Of a DNA stretch of 64,000 nt, positions 5,000 to 24,561 are shown in pieces; the stretch's first letter is position 1, and every line of letters starts with the position of its first letter. The notes under the pieces were generated by a model that saw only the letters and a list, made by a program, of their open reading frames with translations, made no database searches and was not told the origin of the DNA. Both the position numbers and the translations under genes were made by a program. Origin of the DNA: Reinekea marinisedimentorum (GTDB lineage Bacteria > Pseudomonadota > Gammaproteobacteria > Pseudomonadales > Natronospirillaceae); the NCBI RefSeq assembly GCF_004341165.1, contig NZ_SLZR01000003.1:186001-250000 (forward strand), read 5' to 3'.

Positions 5000-7648
5000 T
5001 TAGATAGAGCCTGGAGGCGCACAAAGGATTAAACGGGCGCTGCTGGTTGCAAACTCACATTGAGCCATGGCCTCCGCTTCATCTTTAATTTGATCGCTCA
5101 GCGCAGCGACGTCTTCTTCCGTTACCAGTTTGTTAACCGTGGCCAGGTACTTCATACGTTCCAGACGGGCAACATTGTGTGCTGTCAGGGCATCCGCTGC
5201 CTCGGCAGCAACAGCGCTGAAGCGATCTTTGGCAAACTGCTGGCTTAATTCATACAGCGGTGAAATACGATCTTTGGCCTGACGGATCATCTTGCGGGCA
5301 ATCTTCACAGGCATAGATTTTACCTGCTGCTGCAGAGATTCTTCTTTCAGAATGTCGTTCAAATCCTTATTGCCGCCTTCGAGCACCAGTGTACGGAATA
5401 CCGACTCAGTGATGTGTGGCTTAATAGCATGAACATACAGCTGAGGAATGGTGACCGACCACTGAACCTCCATCAGCAGGCTGCCGGCAGGTACCTGCTC
5501 GGTTTCCAGCACAGCAATACTGGCCTGGCCCAGGTCGGTGCCTTCCAAAATGTCCAGCAAACCCTGAATAAACGGATGCTCCCATGAAAGGAACAGCGTG
5601 TCTTCGCGCGAGCTGGCAATTTTCCGGTCAAAGGTAACCACAGCGCCACCATCCGGAATACCGGGCAGGGTAGGGATCATCATGTTGCTGGAAGGAATCA
5701 GCTCAAAAACGCCCTCTGAAATCGATTCAAAATGCAGGTTCAGCAGGTTAGCCGCCATTTCAACAACCGGTAGGGGGTGGTTTTCCTCCAGGCTTTCAAT
5801 CGCGCTTTTAATTTCGTTTGCCTCAGGCTGACGACAGGAGTTGAGCTCCAGCAGCACGTCACGGCCACTTTCAAGCTGCACAGTCAATTCAGCCATTTCT
5901 GCTTTGATTTCGTCAGCCAGTTGCGTGCTGGCATCCTGGAACCACTGCTCGGCGTACTTTTCATGAATAGCGCCGGCGGCCGGTTGAATCTGGTTGATGC
6001 AATCCAGTGTATTGTTGTACCAGTTGAAGCGAGCCAGGTCGTCGGAGTTTTCGAGCAGGAACGCATGAATCTGAATGGTTTGAGTTTGGCCAATACGGTC
6101 CAAACGGCCGATGCGTTGCTCGAGCATATCCGGGTGACTCGGCAGGTCCCATAAGATCAGGTGATGGCAGAACTGGAAGTTACGACCTTCGCCGCCAATT
6201 TCCGAGCAGACCAGAATTTGAGCGCCGTCCTCATCATCAGCGAAGTGGGCAGCGGCGCGGTCTCGCTCAATCAGGTCGAGATCTTCATGGAAAATGCTGG
6301 CATCGATCGCATACTGGTGGCGAAGTTGAAAACCGAGGTCTTTAGCATCTTCTTTGGTGTGAGTAATCAGCAGAATCTTTTCACTGCTGTGTGCCTTCAA
6401 CCAGCTGGCCAAAGCCTTGATACGGCTTTCGTCTTCGGCAAAAACTTCAACATCGGTTTTGCGCTCGTGGAAGCCATCAACGCCTTTACGCGTATTACGG
6501 TAAACCACACGACCGGTGCCATGGCGATCAAGCAGTGCGGCCAATGCGGCATTGTGTTCCTGCGGCCAGGAAATGCCCAGAGTTTCGAGCTGCTTAGCCT
6601 GTTCGGCACTGACCGTGTTGGCATTAAGCGCAGTAGCCAGCTCGGTCAGTTCCGAGAAGGATTCTTCATCTTTTTTGTATTGTTCAAAATCCGAGAAGCG
6701 TCCGGCATCCAGCAGCTGTAAGCGGCCAAAGTGAGCTTCCAGGCCTAATTGCTCGGGCGTTGCGGTGAGCAGCAACAGGTGGTCGGTGCGGGCAGCAATA
6801 GTAGACCAGTGAGGCACTCCAGGGTTGTTGGCCGTTGGAAGGTGGTGCGCTTCATCCACAACCAGCATGTCCCAGTCGTGAGAATCAATTTCAAGCAGGG
6901 TATCCAGGCTTCTCAGCTGTTTGTGCGTTACCAGGTGTACCTGGCCGATGGCGAAGTCGTGTTCGGCGTTTTGGTACATTTCACAGAACAGAGAGAAACG
7001 ACGGATTAATTCAACCAGCCATTGAGCCTGCAAAGCCTCAGGTACGGCAATCAGAATGCGCTTAGCACGACCCTGCTGGGCCAGGCGGTTGATGATCAAA
7101 CCGGCCTCAATGGTTTTACCGAGGCCAACCTCATCGGCAAGCAGGGCGCGAACATGGGTATGCTCGGTTGCTTTAATGGCAACGTAAAGCTGATGGGGCA
7201 GCAGCGTAGAGCGGGTACCCAGCAGGCCGTTCATCTGCGCGTTCCAGATAGCCTGTGTGCCTTTGTTCAGTGCAGAGCGGAAAGAGAACCAATTAGGGTG
7301 GTCGGTCTGGCCGGTCAGCAAGCGCATTACCGGGTTATTGCGCTTAACGGTATCTGAAAGCTCGGTTTCAGGCACCATCTGGTCATCGGTAGTCTGATAA
7401 ATCAACAGCCCGTTGATTTCATGAACCTCCTGAACCTCCAGAGAACCCTGATCGCGATGCTCCAGCGTATCGCCCACTTCTAATACCAGGCGTGTCAGCG
7501 GCGCGTCACGCAGGGCGTACTGGCGCTCTGTATCGCATTCAGGGAAATACAGAGTAACCGCTCTGGCATCGGTGCTCTGAACCATGCCCAATCCCAGTTC
7601 CGGTTCACTATCGACCAACCAGCGTTGACCCTGAATAAACTCCGCCAT
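5000..7648 (-). CDS. rapA: RapA, RNA polymerase-recycling SWI/SNF ATPase
   Basis: An 882-residue Swi2/Snf2 protein, shorter than E. coli RapA (968). The N-terminal Tudor-like region contains GQRWLVDSEPELGLGMV, the ATPase has Walker A DEVGLGKT (172-179) and Walker B DEAH (265-268), and the helicase C lobe ends with EQRIGRLDRIGQTQTI. In E. coli RapA binds RNA polymerase and rescues post-termination complexes using ATP. The ATG at 7648 has TAGAGG 6 nt upstream. It is divergent from the M16C protease gene, sharing a 238-bp intergenic region. The shortfall in length appears to be in the C-terminal part. Assignment is secure. Confidence 0.95.
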   Translation of the reverse strand: MAEFIQGQRWLVDSEPELGLGMVQSTDARAVTLYFPECDTERQYALRDAPLTRLVLEVGDTLEHRDQGSLEVQEVHEINGLLIYQTTDDQMVPETELSDTVKRNNPVMRLLTGQTDHPNWFSFRSALNKGTQAIWNAQMNGLLGTRSTLLPHQLYVAIKATEHTHVRALLADEVGLGKTIEAGLIINRLAQQGRAKRILIAVPEALQAQWLVELIRRFSLFCEMYQNAEHDFAIGQVHLVTHKQLRSLDTLLEIDSHDWDMLVVDEAHHLPTANNPGVPHWSTIAARTDHLLLLTATPEQLGLEAHFGRLQLLDAGRFSDFEQYKKDEESFSELTELATALNANTVSAEQAKQLETLGISWPQEHNAALAALLDRHGTGRVVYRNTRKGVDGFHERKTDVEVFAEDESRIKALASWLKAHSSEKILLITHTKEDAKDLGFQLRHQYAIDASIFHEDLDLIERDRAAAHFADDEDGAQILVCSEIGGEGRNFQFCHHLILWDLPSHPDMLEQRIGRLDRIGQTQTIQIHAFLLENSDDLARFNWYNNTLDCINQIQPAAGAIHEKYAEQWFQDASTQLADEIKAEMAELTVQLESGRDVLLELNSCRQPEANEIKSAIESLEENHPLPVVEMAANLLNLHFESISEGVFELIPSSNMMIPTLPGIPDGGAVVTFDRKIASSREDTLFLSWEHPFIQGLLDILEGTDLGQASIAVLETEQVPAGSLLMEVQWSVTIPQLYVHAIKPHITESVFRTLVLEGGNKDLNDILKEESLQQQVKSMPVKIARKMIRQAKDRISPLYELSQQFAKDRFSAVAAEAADALTAHNVARLERMKYLATVNKLVTEEDVAALSDQIKDEAEAMAQCEFATSSARLILCAPPGSI

Positions 7649-20801: not shown

Positions 20802-20976
20802 TGAGTTAGCAGTCCCAATCATTTAAACCATGCAAAGTAGGCTTTTATCTAAAGTGTATTAATAGCTTAATCAAATCTATATTGATAAATCGAATTCAAA
20901 GGTGTAAGTGTCAAAATAGTACAGAAAAGGTATCGACTTTTTGAGTGAAATAAAAATATTGTAGGTGATCAATAAA

Positions 20977-21780
20977 ATGGCTAAGTCTGTTCTTGGTAAG
21001 TGTAACCTTTGTAATAGAGAGAATGTTGAGCTTAAAAGTTCTCATTACCTTCCAAATTGGGGTTATAAGGCTATTCAGAAGAGCCCAGAAGGGGGGAGGC
21101 AAAAGCGATTAATTCGAGTAGATAGAAATAAAATTTACTACCCAAAACAACAAATCCGAAGTTACTTGTTGTGTGAGAAATGTGAAATAGCATTTTCGAG
21201 TAGAGAGAAATGGGCACGTCAATACTCTCACGCTGGTGACTTACCAATTATCGATAATCATGAAGAAGTTACAAGAATCTCTGGAGCTACGCTTTGTCTA
21301 TTCCCACAAAATGTAGACATTGAGGCTTTAAAGTACTTCGCATTAAGCGTCTATTGGAGGTTTTCAGTAACAGGAGACAATAAAACCCTACAACTAGGAC
21401 CTTATGAAGAGCGTCTAAGAAAATACTTACTCAATGGAAGGGGAGAGCTAAACAGTATTTATTTGTTTATGTATTTAATCGACGATACAGGATCAATTCC
21501 TTCTGACAAAATGATGCTTATTCCTAAGGCTATAAAAAGAAACAACCCATCTCATTGGGTGCATGTGTTTCAAATTATCGGTTTGAGGTTTCATATGCTG
21601 ATTGGAAAAAAACTTCCTGAAAACTTAAAGAACACTATTCCTTCCTTCGATTTAATTAGAAATGGTAATAGTTTTTTAAAAGTCAGCTCTAGAGAGGATG
21701 CACTATTAGAAACTTTAGTAAATGAATCTATGAATGTTCCACTGACTAAAAACGTTCTAAGGGATTTCCCTGAGAATTAA
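20977..21780 (+). CDS. AT-rich accessory protein with a paired-CxxC (HNH-like) N-terminus
   Basis: A 267-residue protein, not recognised as a named gene. The N-terminal 60 residues carry GKCNLCNREN, then LKSSHYLPNWGYK, then LLCEKCEIAFSSREKW. The order CxxC, SHxxP, LCxxCE is seen in a group of HNH/zinc-finger hypothetical proteins common in mobile and defence loci. The remainder is helical and unclassified. Codon use is AT-rich, unlike both neighbours, which points to recent acquisition. ATG at 20977 has AGGTGAT about 7 nt upstream; GTG at 20965 is an alternative. It lies just before the second recombinase cassette. Nuclease activity is a guess. Confidence 0.7.
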   Translation: MAKSVLGKCNLCNRENVELKSSHYLPNWGYKAIQKSPEGGRQKRLIRVDRNKIYYPKQQIRSYLLCEKCEIAFSSREKWARQYSHAGDLPIIDNHEEVTRISGATLCLFPQNVDIEALKYFALSVYWRFSVTGDNKTLQLGPYEERLRKYLLNGRGELNSIYLFMYLIDDTGSIPSDKMMLIPKAIKRNNPSHWVHVFQIIGLRFHMLIGKKLPENLKNTIPSFDLIRNGNSFLKVSSREDALLETLVNESMNVPLTKNVLRDFPEN

Positions 21781-21843: not shown

Positions 21844-21869
21844 TATGTCCAATACCAAATCGTACTTGC
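21844..21869 (+). repeat. Left copy of candidate recombination core site
   Basis: TATGTCCAATAC (21844-21855), CAAATC, then GTACTTGC (21862-21869). The two arms are imperfect inverted repeats of one another (TCCAATAC against GCAAGTAC, 5 of 8) around a 6-bp centre, the layout of a tyrosine recombinase core site. An inverted copy with a different centre lies at 23207-23232. Confidence 0.65.
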
Positions 21870-21924
21870 TGCGGGTTTGAATGCTATTTATAGTAACCGT
21901 CAATTACCTTAGAACCCAGTAGCC

Positions 21925-23151
21925 ATGCCGACTCCAAAGCCGTACCCGTTATTCCCTAAGCTCTCTGAATTCAAAGAGTTCCACAGCGCCGACTATAGCA
22001 GCTTGCCTGAAATACTGGATGAACCATGGAAAAAACAAGACTGGGAACAGGGTTTTGATTTCCTGACATTTATTGCGCGTAATAAGTCGGAAAACACCTT
22101 TATCCGGTTTCGCAGCGAGGTTGAAAAGCTGCTGTTGTGGCTGTTCCTGATTAAGCAGCAAAAGCTGGAGTCGTTACGCCGTAACGATATTCTGGAGTTT
22201 ATCGACTTTTTCTGGTCGCCACCGAAACCCTGGATCACCTTTAATAACCATGAACGTTTTGAGCTGATCAACGGTGAATTCAAGCCTAACGCAAAATGGA
22301 AGCCATTTAAGGTGTCGGTGCCAAAAGGCTCCAATCAGAAACCGGATAAAGCCAAGTATCGGCCTTCACAGCAGAGCCTGGCATCGTTATTCACGGCGCT
22401 GAACGCCTTTTTTAAGCACATGACCGAAGAAGAATATTTACTCGGCAACCCTGTGCCATTGGCTAAAAAGAATTGCCGGTACTTTATAAAGGATGCTCAG
22501 GTTAAGAATATTAAGCGCCTTACTGAAGACCAGTGGGCCTATATGATTGAAACCTGCCATCAATTGGCTGAAACCGATGCTTACTACGAGCGTAATCTGT
22601 TTTTGATTGTCAGCCTGAAAAGCCTGTTTTTACGCATCTCTGAGTTTTCAGATCGTACGGAATGGCAGCCGACGATGAGTGATTTCTGGCAGGATCACGA
22701 CGGCAACTGGTGGCTTAAGGTTTATGGCAAGGGCCGTAAATTGCGTGACGTTACGGTGCCGGATAGCTTCATTGAATACTTGAGGCGTTATCGTGTGCAG
22801 CAGAATTTACCGCCGTTGCCATCGCCAGGCGAAGCAAACCCGATTATCTATAAATTGCGTGGCGCCGGCAGCCCAACGGGCCGGCAGCTTAGCCGGCTGG
22901 TACAGGAAGCTTTCGATAAAGCCTATGAACGTATGGCTCGCGAACAAGGCCCGGAGCCAGCACAGCAGTTAAAAGAAGCCTCAACACATTGGCTGCGGCA
23001 TACCGGCGCCAGTATGGAGGTTGAACGCGGGCGTGCCATGAAAGATTTATCGGAAGATTTAGGCCATGCCAGTATGGCAACGACCGATACGGTATATGTT
23101 CAGTCCGAAAACAAGAAACGCGCAGAAAGCGGTAAAAACAGGAAGATTTAA
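21925..23151 (+). CDS. Tyrosine recombinase/integrase (second)
   Basis: A 408-residue tyrosine recombinase. N-terminal core-binding region about 50-190, catalytic domain about 200-395. Catalytic set: Arg in FLRISEFSD, Lys in YGKGRKLRD, His and Arg in HWLRHTGAS, His in LGHASMAT and Tyr in DTVYVQS. The set is complete, so it is probably active. It is dissimilar in detail to the recombinase at 15635. Exactly this gene is enclosed by inverted copies of a 12-N6-8 core-like site (21844 and 23207), so it looks like a one-gene mobile or invertible cassette inserted between the AT-rich gene and cbpM. Confidence 0.9.
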   Translation: MPTPKPYPLFPKLSEFKEFHSADYSSLPEILDEPWKKQDWEQGFDFLTFIARNKSENTFIRFRSEVEKLLLWLFLIKQQKLESLRRNDILEFIDFFWSPPKPWITFNNHERFELINGEFKPNAKWKPFKVSVPKGSNQKPDKAKYRPSQQSLASLFTALNAFFKHMTEEEYLLGNPVPLAKKNCRYFIKDAQVKNIKRLTEDQWAYMIETCHQLAETDAYYERNLFLIVSLKSLFLRISEFSDRTEWQPTMSDFWQDHDGNWWLKVYGKGRKLRDVTVPDSFIEYLRRYRVQQNLPPLPSPGEANPIIYKLRGAGSPTGRQLSRLVQEAFDKAYERMAREQGPEPAQQLKEASTHWLRHTGASMEVERGRAMKDLSEDLGHASMATTDTVYVQSENKKRAESGKNRKI

Positions 23152-23167
23152 CTAATAATTTAACTAC

Positions 23168-23185
23168 AGCGGTTTTATGCCGCTT
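23168..23185 (+). terminator. Weak hairpin after the second recombinase
   Basis: AGCGG-TTTTATG-CCGCT, a 5-bp stem 16 nt after the stop, with only a short T-containing tail. Confidence 0.35.
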
Positions 23186-23206
23186 CTCGCCGCCTTATGT
23201 GCTATT

Positions 23207-23232
23207 GCAAGTACTGCCAAGTATTGGACATA
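23207..23232 (-). repeat. Right copy of candidate recombination core site, inverted
   Basis: On the minus strand: TATGTCCAATAC (23232-23221), TTGGCA, then GTACTTGC (23214-23207). It is identical in both arms to the left copy and differs at all six central positions. It lies 56 nt from the cbpM stop. Confidence 0.65.
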
Positions 23233-23604: not shown

Positions 23605-24561
23605 TTAAAGCCTCAGCCCTGCTCGTGGATTGAAGTTACAGGCCTGCCTGAAGTTTTCATAGGCCTTTTTGGCGGCTTCTGTATCTGCTTTGGGCAATGC
23701 AACCTTGATGACGACGTACAAATCGCCCGCTTCTTTTGCCGGAATACCGCGTCCTTTTAAGCGTAGCTTCTTACCGGTGCCGGAACCTGCAGGTATTTTA
23801 AGGTCAACGGTGCCGTCTGGCGTTGGTGTTTTAACTGTTGCACCCAGCGCGGCTTCCCACGGCGCAACCGGAAGATCAATAAAGACGTCTTTGCCTTCCA
23901 CTTTATAGTAAGAGTGCGGTTTAAAGCTCACTTCCAGGTACAGATCTCCCGGCTTACCATCACCGACACCCGGCTCACCCTGCCCGGCAAGGCGAATGTG
24001 TTGCCCCTGGCGCACACCTTTAGGAATACGCACATTCAGCACGCGTTCTTTAATGTGTGGCCGGCCATCGTTACCGAGCACCGTATGCTTAAGCGTGAAG
24101 GCTTTTGGCCCGCCACGATAGGCATCCTCTAAATCGATAACCACTTTGGTATGGGTGTCGCCACCACGGGCATGAAAACCCCGTTGCGTATGTCCGCCAA
24201 AACCCTGTGAAAATCGTTGCCCAAACAGGCTTTCAAAAAAGTCACTGAACTCGGCCGAATCGGCGTTGGTGTAGCCGCCACCCTGAAATTCAAAACCCTG
24301 ATCCCAATCCGGTGGTGGTCGGAAATCCTGCCCTGACTGCCAATTTTTACCCAGCTGATCATAAGCAGAACGTTTTTCAGGGTCTTTGAGCACTTCATAG
24401 GCTTCATTGACCTCTTTAAAACGTGCCTCGGCATCCGGTTCTTTACTGACATCCGGGTGATACTTTCGGGCTAACCGCCGGTAAGCACGCTTGATCTCGT
24501 CCTGACCGGCGTCGCGTTTTACCCCAATCACGTCGTAGTAATCTTTAAATTCCATACTCAC
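23605..24561 (-). CDS. cbpA: DnaJ-class co-chaperone CbpA
   Basis: A 318-residue protein: J domain at 5-70 with the HPD motif in RKYHPDVSK, a Gly/Phe-rich linker (about 75-130), then two DnaJ C-terminal domains without the zinc-finger region. CbpA stimulates DnaK and partly replaces DnaJ in E. coli, and is a curved-DNA-binding nucleoid protein in stationary phase. Followed by cbpM and preceded by clpB, with a hairpin in the 78-bp gap. Assignment is secure because of cbpM. Confidence 0.92.

Follow-up and report, generated by a model that had tools for sequence, protein, structure and literature searches.

The tyrosine recombinase gene described here and its dif-like sites very probably (at a probability of about 0.86) form a single-recombinase dif/Xer module for chromosome dimer resolution, which is of the XerL kind and replaces XerCD/dif. 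This reading is based on the position of the locus at the replication terminus, the convergence of KOPS motifs on it, the pairing of the recombinase with a palindromic site, and the apparent absence of XerCD/dif from this genome together with the anticorrelation of the two systems across genomes. The window, i.e. the whole stretch of DNA that was analysed, comprises 64,000 nucleotides of a 420-kb contig, and its relevant features are listed below by their position in the window.

5663..5675, forward strand: two overlapping KOPS (GGGNAGGG), the nearest on the left, aimed at the locus
20965..21780, forward strand: AT-rich gene (GC 0.357), weakly similar to HNH-type proteins (HlpB, E 0.0021), to the left of the left site
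21844..21873, forward strand: left dif-like site, TATGTCCAATAC-CAAATC-GTACTTGCTGCG; the recombinase gene lies about 80 bp downstream of it
21925..23151, forward strand: tyrosine recombinase gene (408 aa, XerL-like), the single gene between the sites
23145, no strand: point at which the cumulative GC skew of the 420-kb contig peaks, marking the replication terminus, at a distance of 58 bp from the right site
23203..23232, reverse strand: right dif-like site TATGTCCAATAC-TTGGCA-GTACTTGCAATA, an extra downstream inverted copy and the better-scoring dif candidate
23978..23985, reverse strand: nearest KOPS on the right (GGGCAGGG), which lies about 750 bp away from the right site and is aimed at the locus

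The recombinase gene and its two sites at the replication terminus

The encoded protein belongs to the tyrosine recombinase family (Pfam PF00589, E 3.3e-11), and judging from the sequence motif its catalytic tyrosine is probably residue 391. Scores against the models of known Xer recombinases were far from the respective cut-offs, amounting to 55.7 bits for XerC (cut-off 335.15), 43.1 for XerD (cut-off 329.6) and 29.5 bits for XerS (cut-off 267), and the protein was likewise far under the cut-offs of the integron models. XerA (E 5e-4) was the sole match with a solved structure. The homologue of Reinekea forsetii is 71% identical, and a protein encoded on a plasmid of L. fallonii, which is not the XerL of L. 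pneumophila itself, shows 36.3% identity over 99% of the window query. No second homologue was found in this genome at E<=0.001. The right neighbour of the locus is cbpM. The AT-rich gene on the left, for which the defence-gene models gave no match, is a mere neighbour as far as shown and possibly recent cargo at the terminus.

According to the original prediction, the gene is bracketed by two inverted sites with identical arms and entirely different centres. The pattern search bore this out: TATGTCCAATAC-N6-GTACTTGC is present at 21844-21869 (+) and 23207-23232 (-), 20 of 20 arm bases are the same in both sites, and the centres CAAATC (left) and TTGGCA (right) have 0 of 6 bases in common. With up to three mismatches allowed, the pattern has two matches in the window compared to none in 100 dinucleotide shuffles, and in the 4.23-Mb draft genome (62 contigs) these two are the only exact copies. 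When scored by the palindrome of the relatives, TATGTCCAATAC-N6-GTATTGGACATA, both sites fit a 12-N6-12 format, with agreement at 20 of 24 positions for the right site (23203-23232) and at 17 for the left site (21844-21873), 17 being also the top value among 270 shuffled flanks. In each site the outer arm is a perfect consensus arm and the inner arm is weak, both inner arms being GTACTTGC. The score matrix gave 26.6 bits for the right site and 14.3 bits for the left one, and the inverted-repeat pairing from arm to arm amounts to 8/12 and 5/12, respectively. A further candidate at 20886 (15/24) was dismissed as a chance match, since it reached 4.0 bits against 14.3 and 26.6 for the two sites.

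The left site is in the position that is usual among the relatives, and the right site is the extra one. The left site has the same place and orientation as the single upstream site of R. forsetii; the right arm of the latter also starts with GTACT, so that the asymmetry of the arms has a parallel in the genus. One of the two window sites seems to be the dif of this organism.

The locus is at the replication terminus. The cumulative skew forms a plateau around 23138-23178, and skew values over 20 kb of the 420-kb contig turn from positive to negative across the locus. Of the KOPS motifs on this contig, the sequence of which we take to be GGGNAGGG, 29 out of 30 are aimed at the locus, with 15 forward and 1 reverse to the left and 0 forward and 14 reverse to the right. 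The term dif-like core sites, as used in the original prediction, thus proved right, and more literally than it was meant.

For comparison, 400 kb around the gene were analysed in five closed genomes (G003, G009, G008, G142 and G084). In G003 the skew maximum is 13.1 kb from the gene, the KOPS ratio changes from 22:4 to 3:19, and a 12/12 palindrome (12-6-12) is located within the KOPS convergence interval, 6.3 kb from the gene; in G009 the skew maximum is 3.4 kb away, the KOPS ratio changes from 20:1 to 1:22, and a 10/12 palindrome of the same format lies within the convergence interval at 3.5 kb, palindromes of at least 10/12 alone being frequent (35-74 per 400 kb). G008 carries a perfect palindrome 84 bp from the gene; the skew maximum is 15 kb away and the KOPS optimum (13:5 then 0:18) is about 60 kb from the site. 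In G142 the skew has one sign around the gene and is near zero about 190 kb away, and a perfect palindrome is found where it nears zero, at C1:506925 of a stretch examined up to 515000. The sites of G003 and G009 were first found by palindrome sharing and those of G142 and G008 by regular expression; as the score matrix was partly trained on these four, its ranking there is circular. In G084 about 190 kb separate the gene from the apparent terminus; the skew maximum is close to where the stretch ends (5.6 kb), and no palindromic site was found in the 400 kb. Out of 26 named loci, mostly from Colwellia, only 16 have skew of opposite sign to the left and to the right of the gene (about 10 kb), with KOPS ratios of 10:1 (left) and 0:5 (right). 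A skew change at the gene was seen in none of ten Marinomonas-type loci (L090-L098, L100), which contradict a terminal position of the gene as a general rule.

Sites, clades and XerCD/dif in other genomes

The flanks were compared for 54 clade homologues, consisting of 13 from the search of 145 relatives (window included) and 41 of 58 further loci, while 17 of the 58 were left out (a duplicate genome copy, more distant Marinomonas and Pseudomonas proteins, and fragments). Of the 54, 43 have a site that scores 18/24 or better in the 300 bp before the gene; many loci come from one genus and are not independent. None of 270 mononucleotide-shuffled flanks reached this score (maximum 17). Nine of the 54 have no site at this level. 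L051 has 17/24 upstream, L061 has its arms around an 8-bp centre, the site of L082 is 1.6 kb upstream of the gene, little upstream sequence is present for L074 and L081, and for L004, L050 and L052 no site was found within reach. In L087 (Colwellia sp. C2M11, 7493-7522) the palindrome upstream of xerL is reduced to its gene-side half, a pattern that would fit an insertion into dif. TCTTCA is the centre of the site in 27 of 45 site-bearing loci, i.e. in 26 of 32 loci labelled Colwellia or Cognaticolwellia and in one uncultured Alteromonadaceae locus. The arms are perfect (12/12) in L011, L013 and L017; the usual Colwellia site has 11/12.

A downstream site was found in two of the 54 loci, namely in the window (20/24) and in the Colwellia MAG L057 (19/24). 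The search for the site beside homologues, as proposed originally, was successful for a single upstream site, whereas paired flanking sites were found in the window only: among the 54 loci it alone reaches 17/24 or more on both sides within 300 bp, and homologues thus do occur without the pair. The weaker side reaches 16/24 in L011 and L058, a value that shuffled flanks reach as well, and 15/24 in L057. Similarly, a scan for inverted or direct pairs over 400 bp gave 18/20 for the window and at most 16/20 in 29 other loci.

For the distribution across the relatives the recombinase was called at E<=1e-50, dif at up to three mismatches and XerD at the cut-off of the curated model. In this draft genome no canonical dif was found at up to three mismatches and no XerD-grade protein, the best match to the XerD model having an E value of 8.1e-23. 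Among the 145 relatives, 51 have the recombinase. XerD over the cut-off is present in 4 of these 51 compared to 85 of the 94 others, and canonical dif in the same 4 compared to 80 of the 94; nine of the 94 lack both the recombinase and XerD over the cut-off. A class-level sample of 369 genomes, five of which are common to the set of relatives, gave a similar result: the recombinase was found in 46, XerD over the cut-off in 0/46 with it and 273/323 without it, and dif in 1/46 (G321, a fragmented assembly) and 228/323, respectively. Here, 50 of the 323 genomes without the recombinase are also without XerD over the cut-off. Fisher tests gave p < 1e-19 for the anticorrelation of the recombinase with XerCD/dif, with kinship ignored and the genomes not being independent. 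We infer the absence of XerC from the same search, because XerC-like proteins of the relatives match the XerD model at about 1e-85.

Both states occur within seven family labels (f15, f23, f29, f82, f173, f181 and f185), which suggests that the swap of XerCD/dif occurred several times and in several families. Seven recombinase genomes (G001, G020, G035, G081, G272, G282 and G439) have intermediate matches to the XerD model below the cut-off (E 1e-56 to 1e-76), and some genomes, e.g. G010 and G077, have neither system. Both systems are present in full in G067, G074, G116 and G138, where the distance from the gene to dif is 5.3 kb, about 55 bp, about 65 bp and 0.8 kb, respectively. In the XerD-keeping genome G116 the recombinase gene next to the canonical dif is found at C8:235648-236851, and in G074 (L027) a perfect 12-6-12 palindrome is located on the side of the gene opposite to the canonical dif.

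A tree of the homologues, which took in 31 of 42 rows, unveiled two well-supported groups. Wherever sites were found, they are of the TATGTCC type in the first group (G000, G002, G004, G006, Colwellia and plasmid members) and of the TATTTCC type or similar in the second one (G003, G009 and Marinomonas), the site for G142 in this group being taken from a family member outside the tree. G000 and G003 belong to the same genus but to different clades, and the modules thus seem to have been exchanged.

Some members of the family were observed on extrachromosomal or apparently mobile DNA. Two MAGs of uncultured Pseudomonadales share 9.5 kb at 100% identity (L051 1-9496 and L053 8490-17985), a stretch which brings its own xerL, preceded by a dif-like site, in addition to the native xerL beside or near it, and which is accompanied by efflux-type genes (identified by eye). 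Judging from this stretch, xerL modules seem to travel on islands. A related gene with an upstream dif-like site was also found on large plasmids of Pseudomonas aeruginosa, Agarilytica and Alteromonas and on a 680-kb replicon of Pseudoalteromonas (L120, position 11907; L121, 9919; L122, 9919; L123, 7791).

Proposed mode of action and possible origin of the second site

In the proposed mechanism FtsK would pump the terminus along the KOPS to the septum after replication. A recombinase tetramer would then bind both arms of the dif-like site on each sister, and strand exchange at the borders of the 6-bp centre would split the dimer into two monomers. Recombination between the left and the right site, i.e. 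a flip of the gene, would be largely blocked because the centres mismatch, and exchange between each site and its counterpart on the sister would stay possible. FtsK control, binding, catalysis and dimer resolution by the window recombinase are all predicted. A point against this explanation is that both window sites fall short of the consensus (20/24 and 17/24). Some members of the family may serve plasmids, since large plasmids carry the pair of gene and site as well.

As to alternatives, the original prediction interpreted the locus as a minimal single-gene element or as a recombinase which inverts its own cassette. As the main function of the locus this is not supported, and the element survives as a hypothesis on its origin. 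A switch in which the recombinase inverts its own gene would explain why inverted arms flank the gene; it is, however, highly improbable given that the centres share 0 of 6 bases, that the relatives mostly have one site and that the locus is at the terminus. Mismatched centres normally block completed exchange, as is the case for Xer and Cre. It is also quite improbable that a gene for the multimer resolution of a plasmid or chromid has ended up in the chromosome by chance. The gene with its upstream site is indeed found on the four records of the plasmid collection that were examined (three large plasmids and the 680-kb Pseudoalteromonas replicon), but such a gene would account neither for the terminus position and the convergence of the KOPS nor for the lack of XerCD/dif in the same genomes.

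Two further hypotheses concern the origin of the second site. On the one hand, dif may have been duplicated, such that the left site is the ancestral, decaying upstream dif and the right site an inverted copy that took over; the unlike centres would prevent recombination of the two sites with each other, and this sub-hypothesis is compatible with the dimer-resolution module. It is a serious candidate, though at somewhat less than even odds. The left site indeed corresponds in position and direction to the only site of R. forsetii, and the right one scores higher and is nearer to the skew peak. A copy should, however, share the centre of its template, yet the two sites agree in 20 arm bases and in none of the six centre bases. 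On the other hand, the segment of about 1.36 kb between the centres may be an xerL-dif circle that was inserted into a resident dif, and thereby a minimal, IMEX-like element. Insertion of a circle would convert A-N6-A' and B-N6-B' into A-N6-B' / gene / B-N6'-A' with one centre from each partner, so that identical arms with unrelated centres are what is expected if a circle with its own site entered a resident site. The product would still act in dimer resolution. This origin can be put forward tentatively. It agrees with the perfect consensus in both outer arms and GTACTTGC in both inner ones, with the distance of the left site from the gene, which is the usual one and would follow if the circle brought this site along, with the two recombinase clades within one genus, and with the short distance of about 55-65 bp between the gene and the canonical dif in G074 and G116.

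Furthermore, the lone dif of G002 is consistent with a circle insertion. In this genome, which is of the same genus as the window genome, a site without a recombinase gene lies in the syntenic interval between xthA-tdk and betA-BADH (names assigned by eye), and the gene is 16 kb away; in G004 and G006 the same interval holds both the site and the gene. Consequently, gene and site do part company, and a conserved site is found without the recombinase beside it. Both this and the homologues that lack the flanking pair are outcomes which the original prediction had named as refuting it. Against an inserted circle stand the lack of other homologues among the 54 loci with at least 17/24 on both sides, the fact that no circular form was seen, and the outcome of the search for an empty site, which the original prediction had suggested for related strains. 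The neighbour genes are present in few relatives (cbpM in 3 of 21 genomes and the left neighbour in 5 of 21, each count including the own genome), and no empty site was found at their loci: nothing above 15/24 was detected in seven loci of relatives (L125, L126 and L247-L251) except for a 17/24 match in G014 (L250 and L251, same place), which we counted as background.

A broader speculation, which we consider unlikely, is that xerL and dif form a cassette which moves by itself into dif sites, the canonical dif of XerCD among them, and thereby swaps the resolution systems. If this were true, the window would represent an insertion into a dif that was already of the XerL type, and G074 and G116 would represent a landing beside the canonical dif before the loss of XerCD.

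Comparison with known systems

The dimer-resolution module proposed here resembles several known systems. With XerCD/dif it shares the terminus position, the polarity of the KOPS, the 6-bp centre and presumably the function; XerCD/dif, however, uses two recombinases and a different 28-bp site. The difSL/XerS and difH/XerH systems likewise have a single recombinase whose gene is beside its dif, but XerS has 356 aa and difSL an 11-bp centre (PMC5357621), compared to 408 aa and 6 bp here. In IMEX/pdif modules DNA is bracketed by dif-like sites of unequal sequence as well; IMEXs rely on recombinases of the host (PMC9765430), whereas in the window the recombinase is encoded by the very gene between the sites. 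Strand-biased circularizing integrative elements also combine a tyrosine recombinase with 6-bp spacers and inverted terminal motifs, but they need intA, tfp, intB and srap (PMC10214605, PMC9345347). As there is only one gene between the sites here, an element of this type was rejected.

A survey from 2009 listed Colwellia psychrerythraea and Saccharophagus degradans (among larger chromosomes) as well as Legionellales as being without dif/Xer and raised the question of a substitute (PMC2731167). For Legionellales, XerL answered this question, since it was found experimentally to be a single recombinase for chromosome dimer resolution (Nicholson et al. 2022, PMC9765430); it is also treated in PMC11472951 (Legionella pneumophila and Acinetobacter). 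The homologue search described in PMC9765430 was carried out in Legionellales databases, and our own search by titles and the beginnings of abstracts, with subscription papers and preprints outside its range, gave among the papers listed no report of an XerL-type system outside Legionellales. A candidate recombinase with its site can now be named for Colwellia, the Reinekea-type genome and many other, often marine, Gammaproteobacteria.

The likeness to dif/XerL includes a site of roughly 30 bp near the GC-skew maximum, the occurrence in genomes without XerCD/dif and the existence of plasmid-borne members (PMC9765430). It may extend to the position of the catalytic tyrosine (387 and 389 in Legionellales; 391 here by motif) and to the long inverted repeats in the arms, which are less complete in the window (8/12 and 5/12) than in some relatives. 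In contrast to L. pneumophila, where site and gene are more than 400 kb apart (PMC9765430), the site usually adjoins the gene here, and the hosts are a Reinekea-type genome, Colwellia and other Gammaproteobacteria. Finally, the window genome differs in having two inverted sites with different centres, and this two-site variant together with the genomes that have both systems may show how a chromosome-maintenance system gets replaced.
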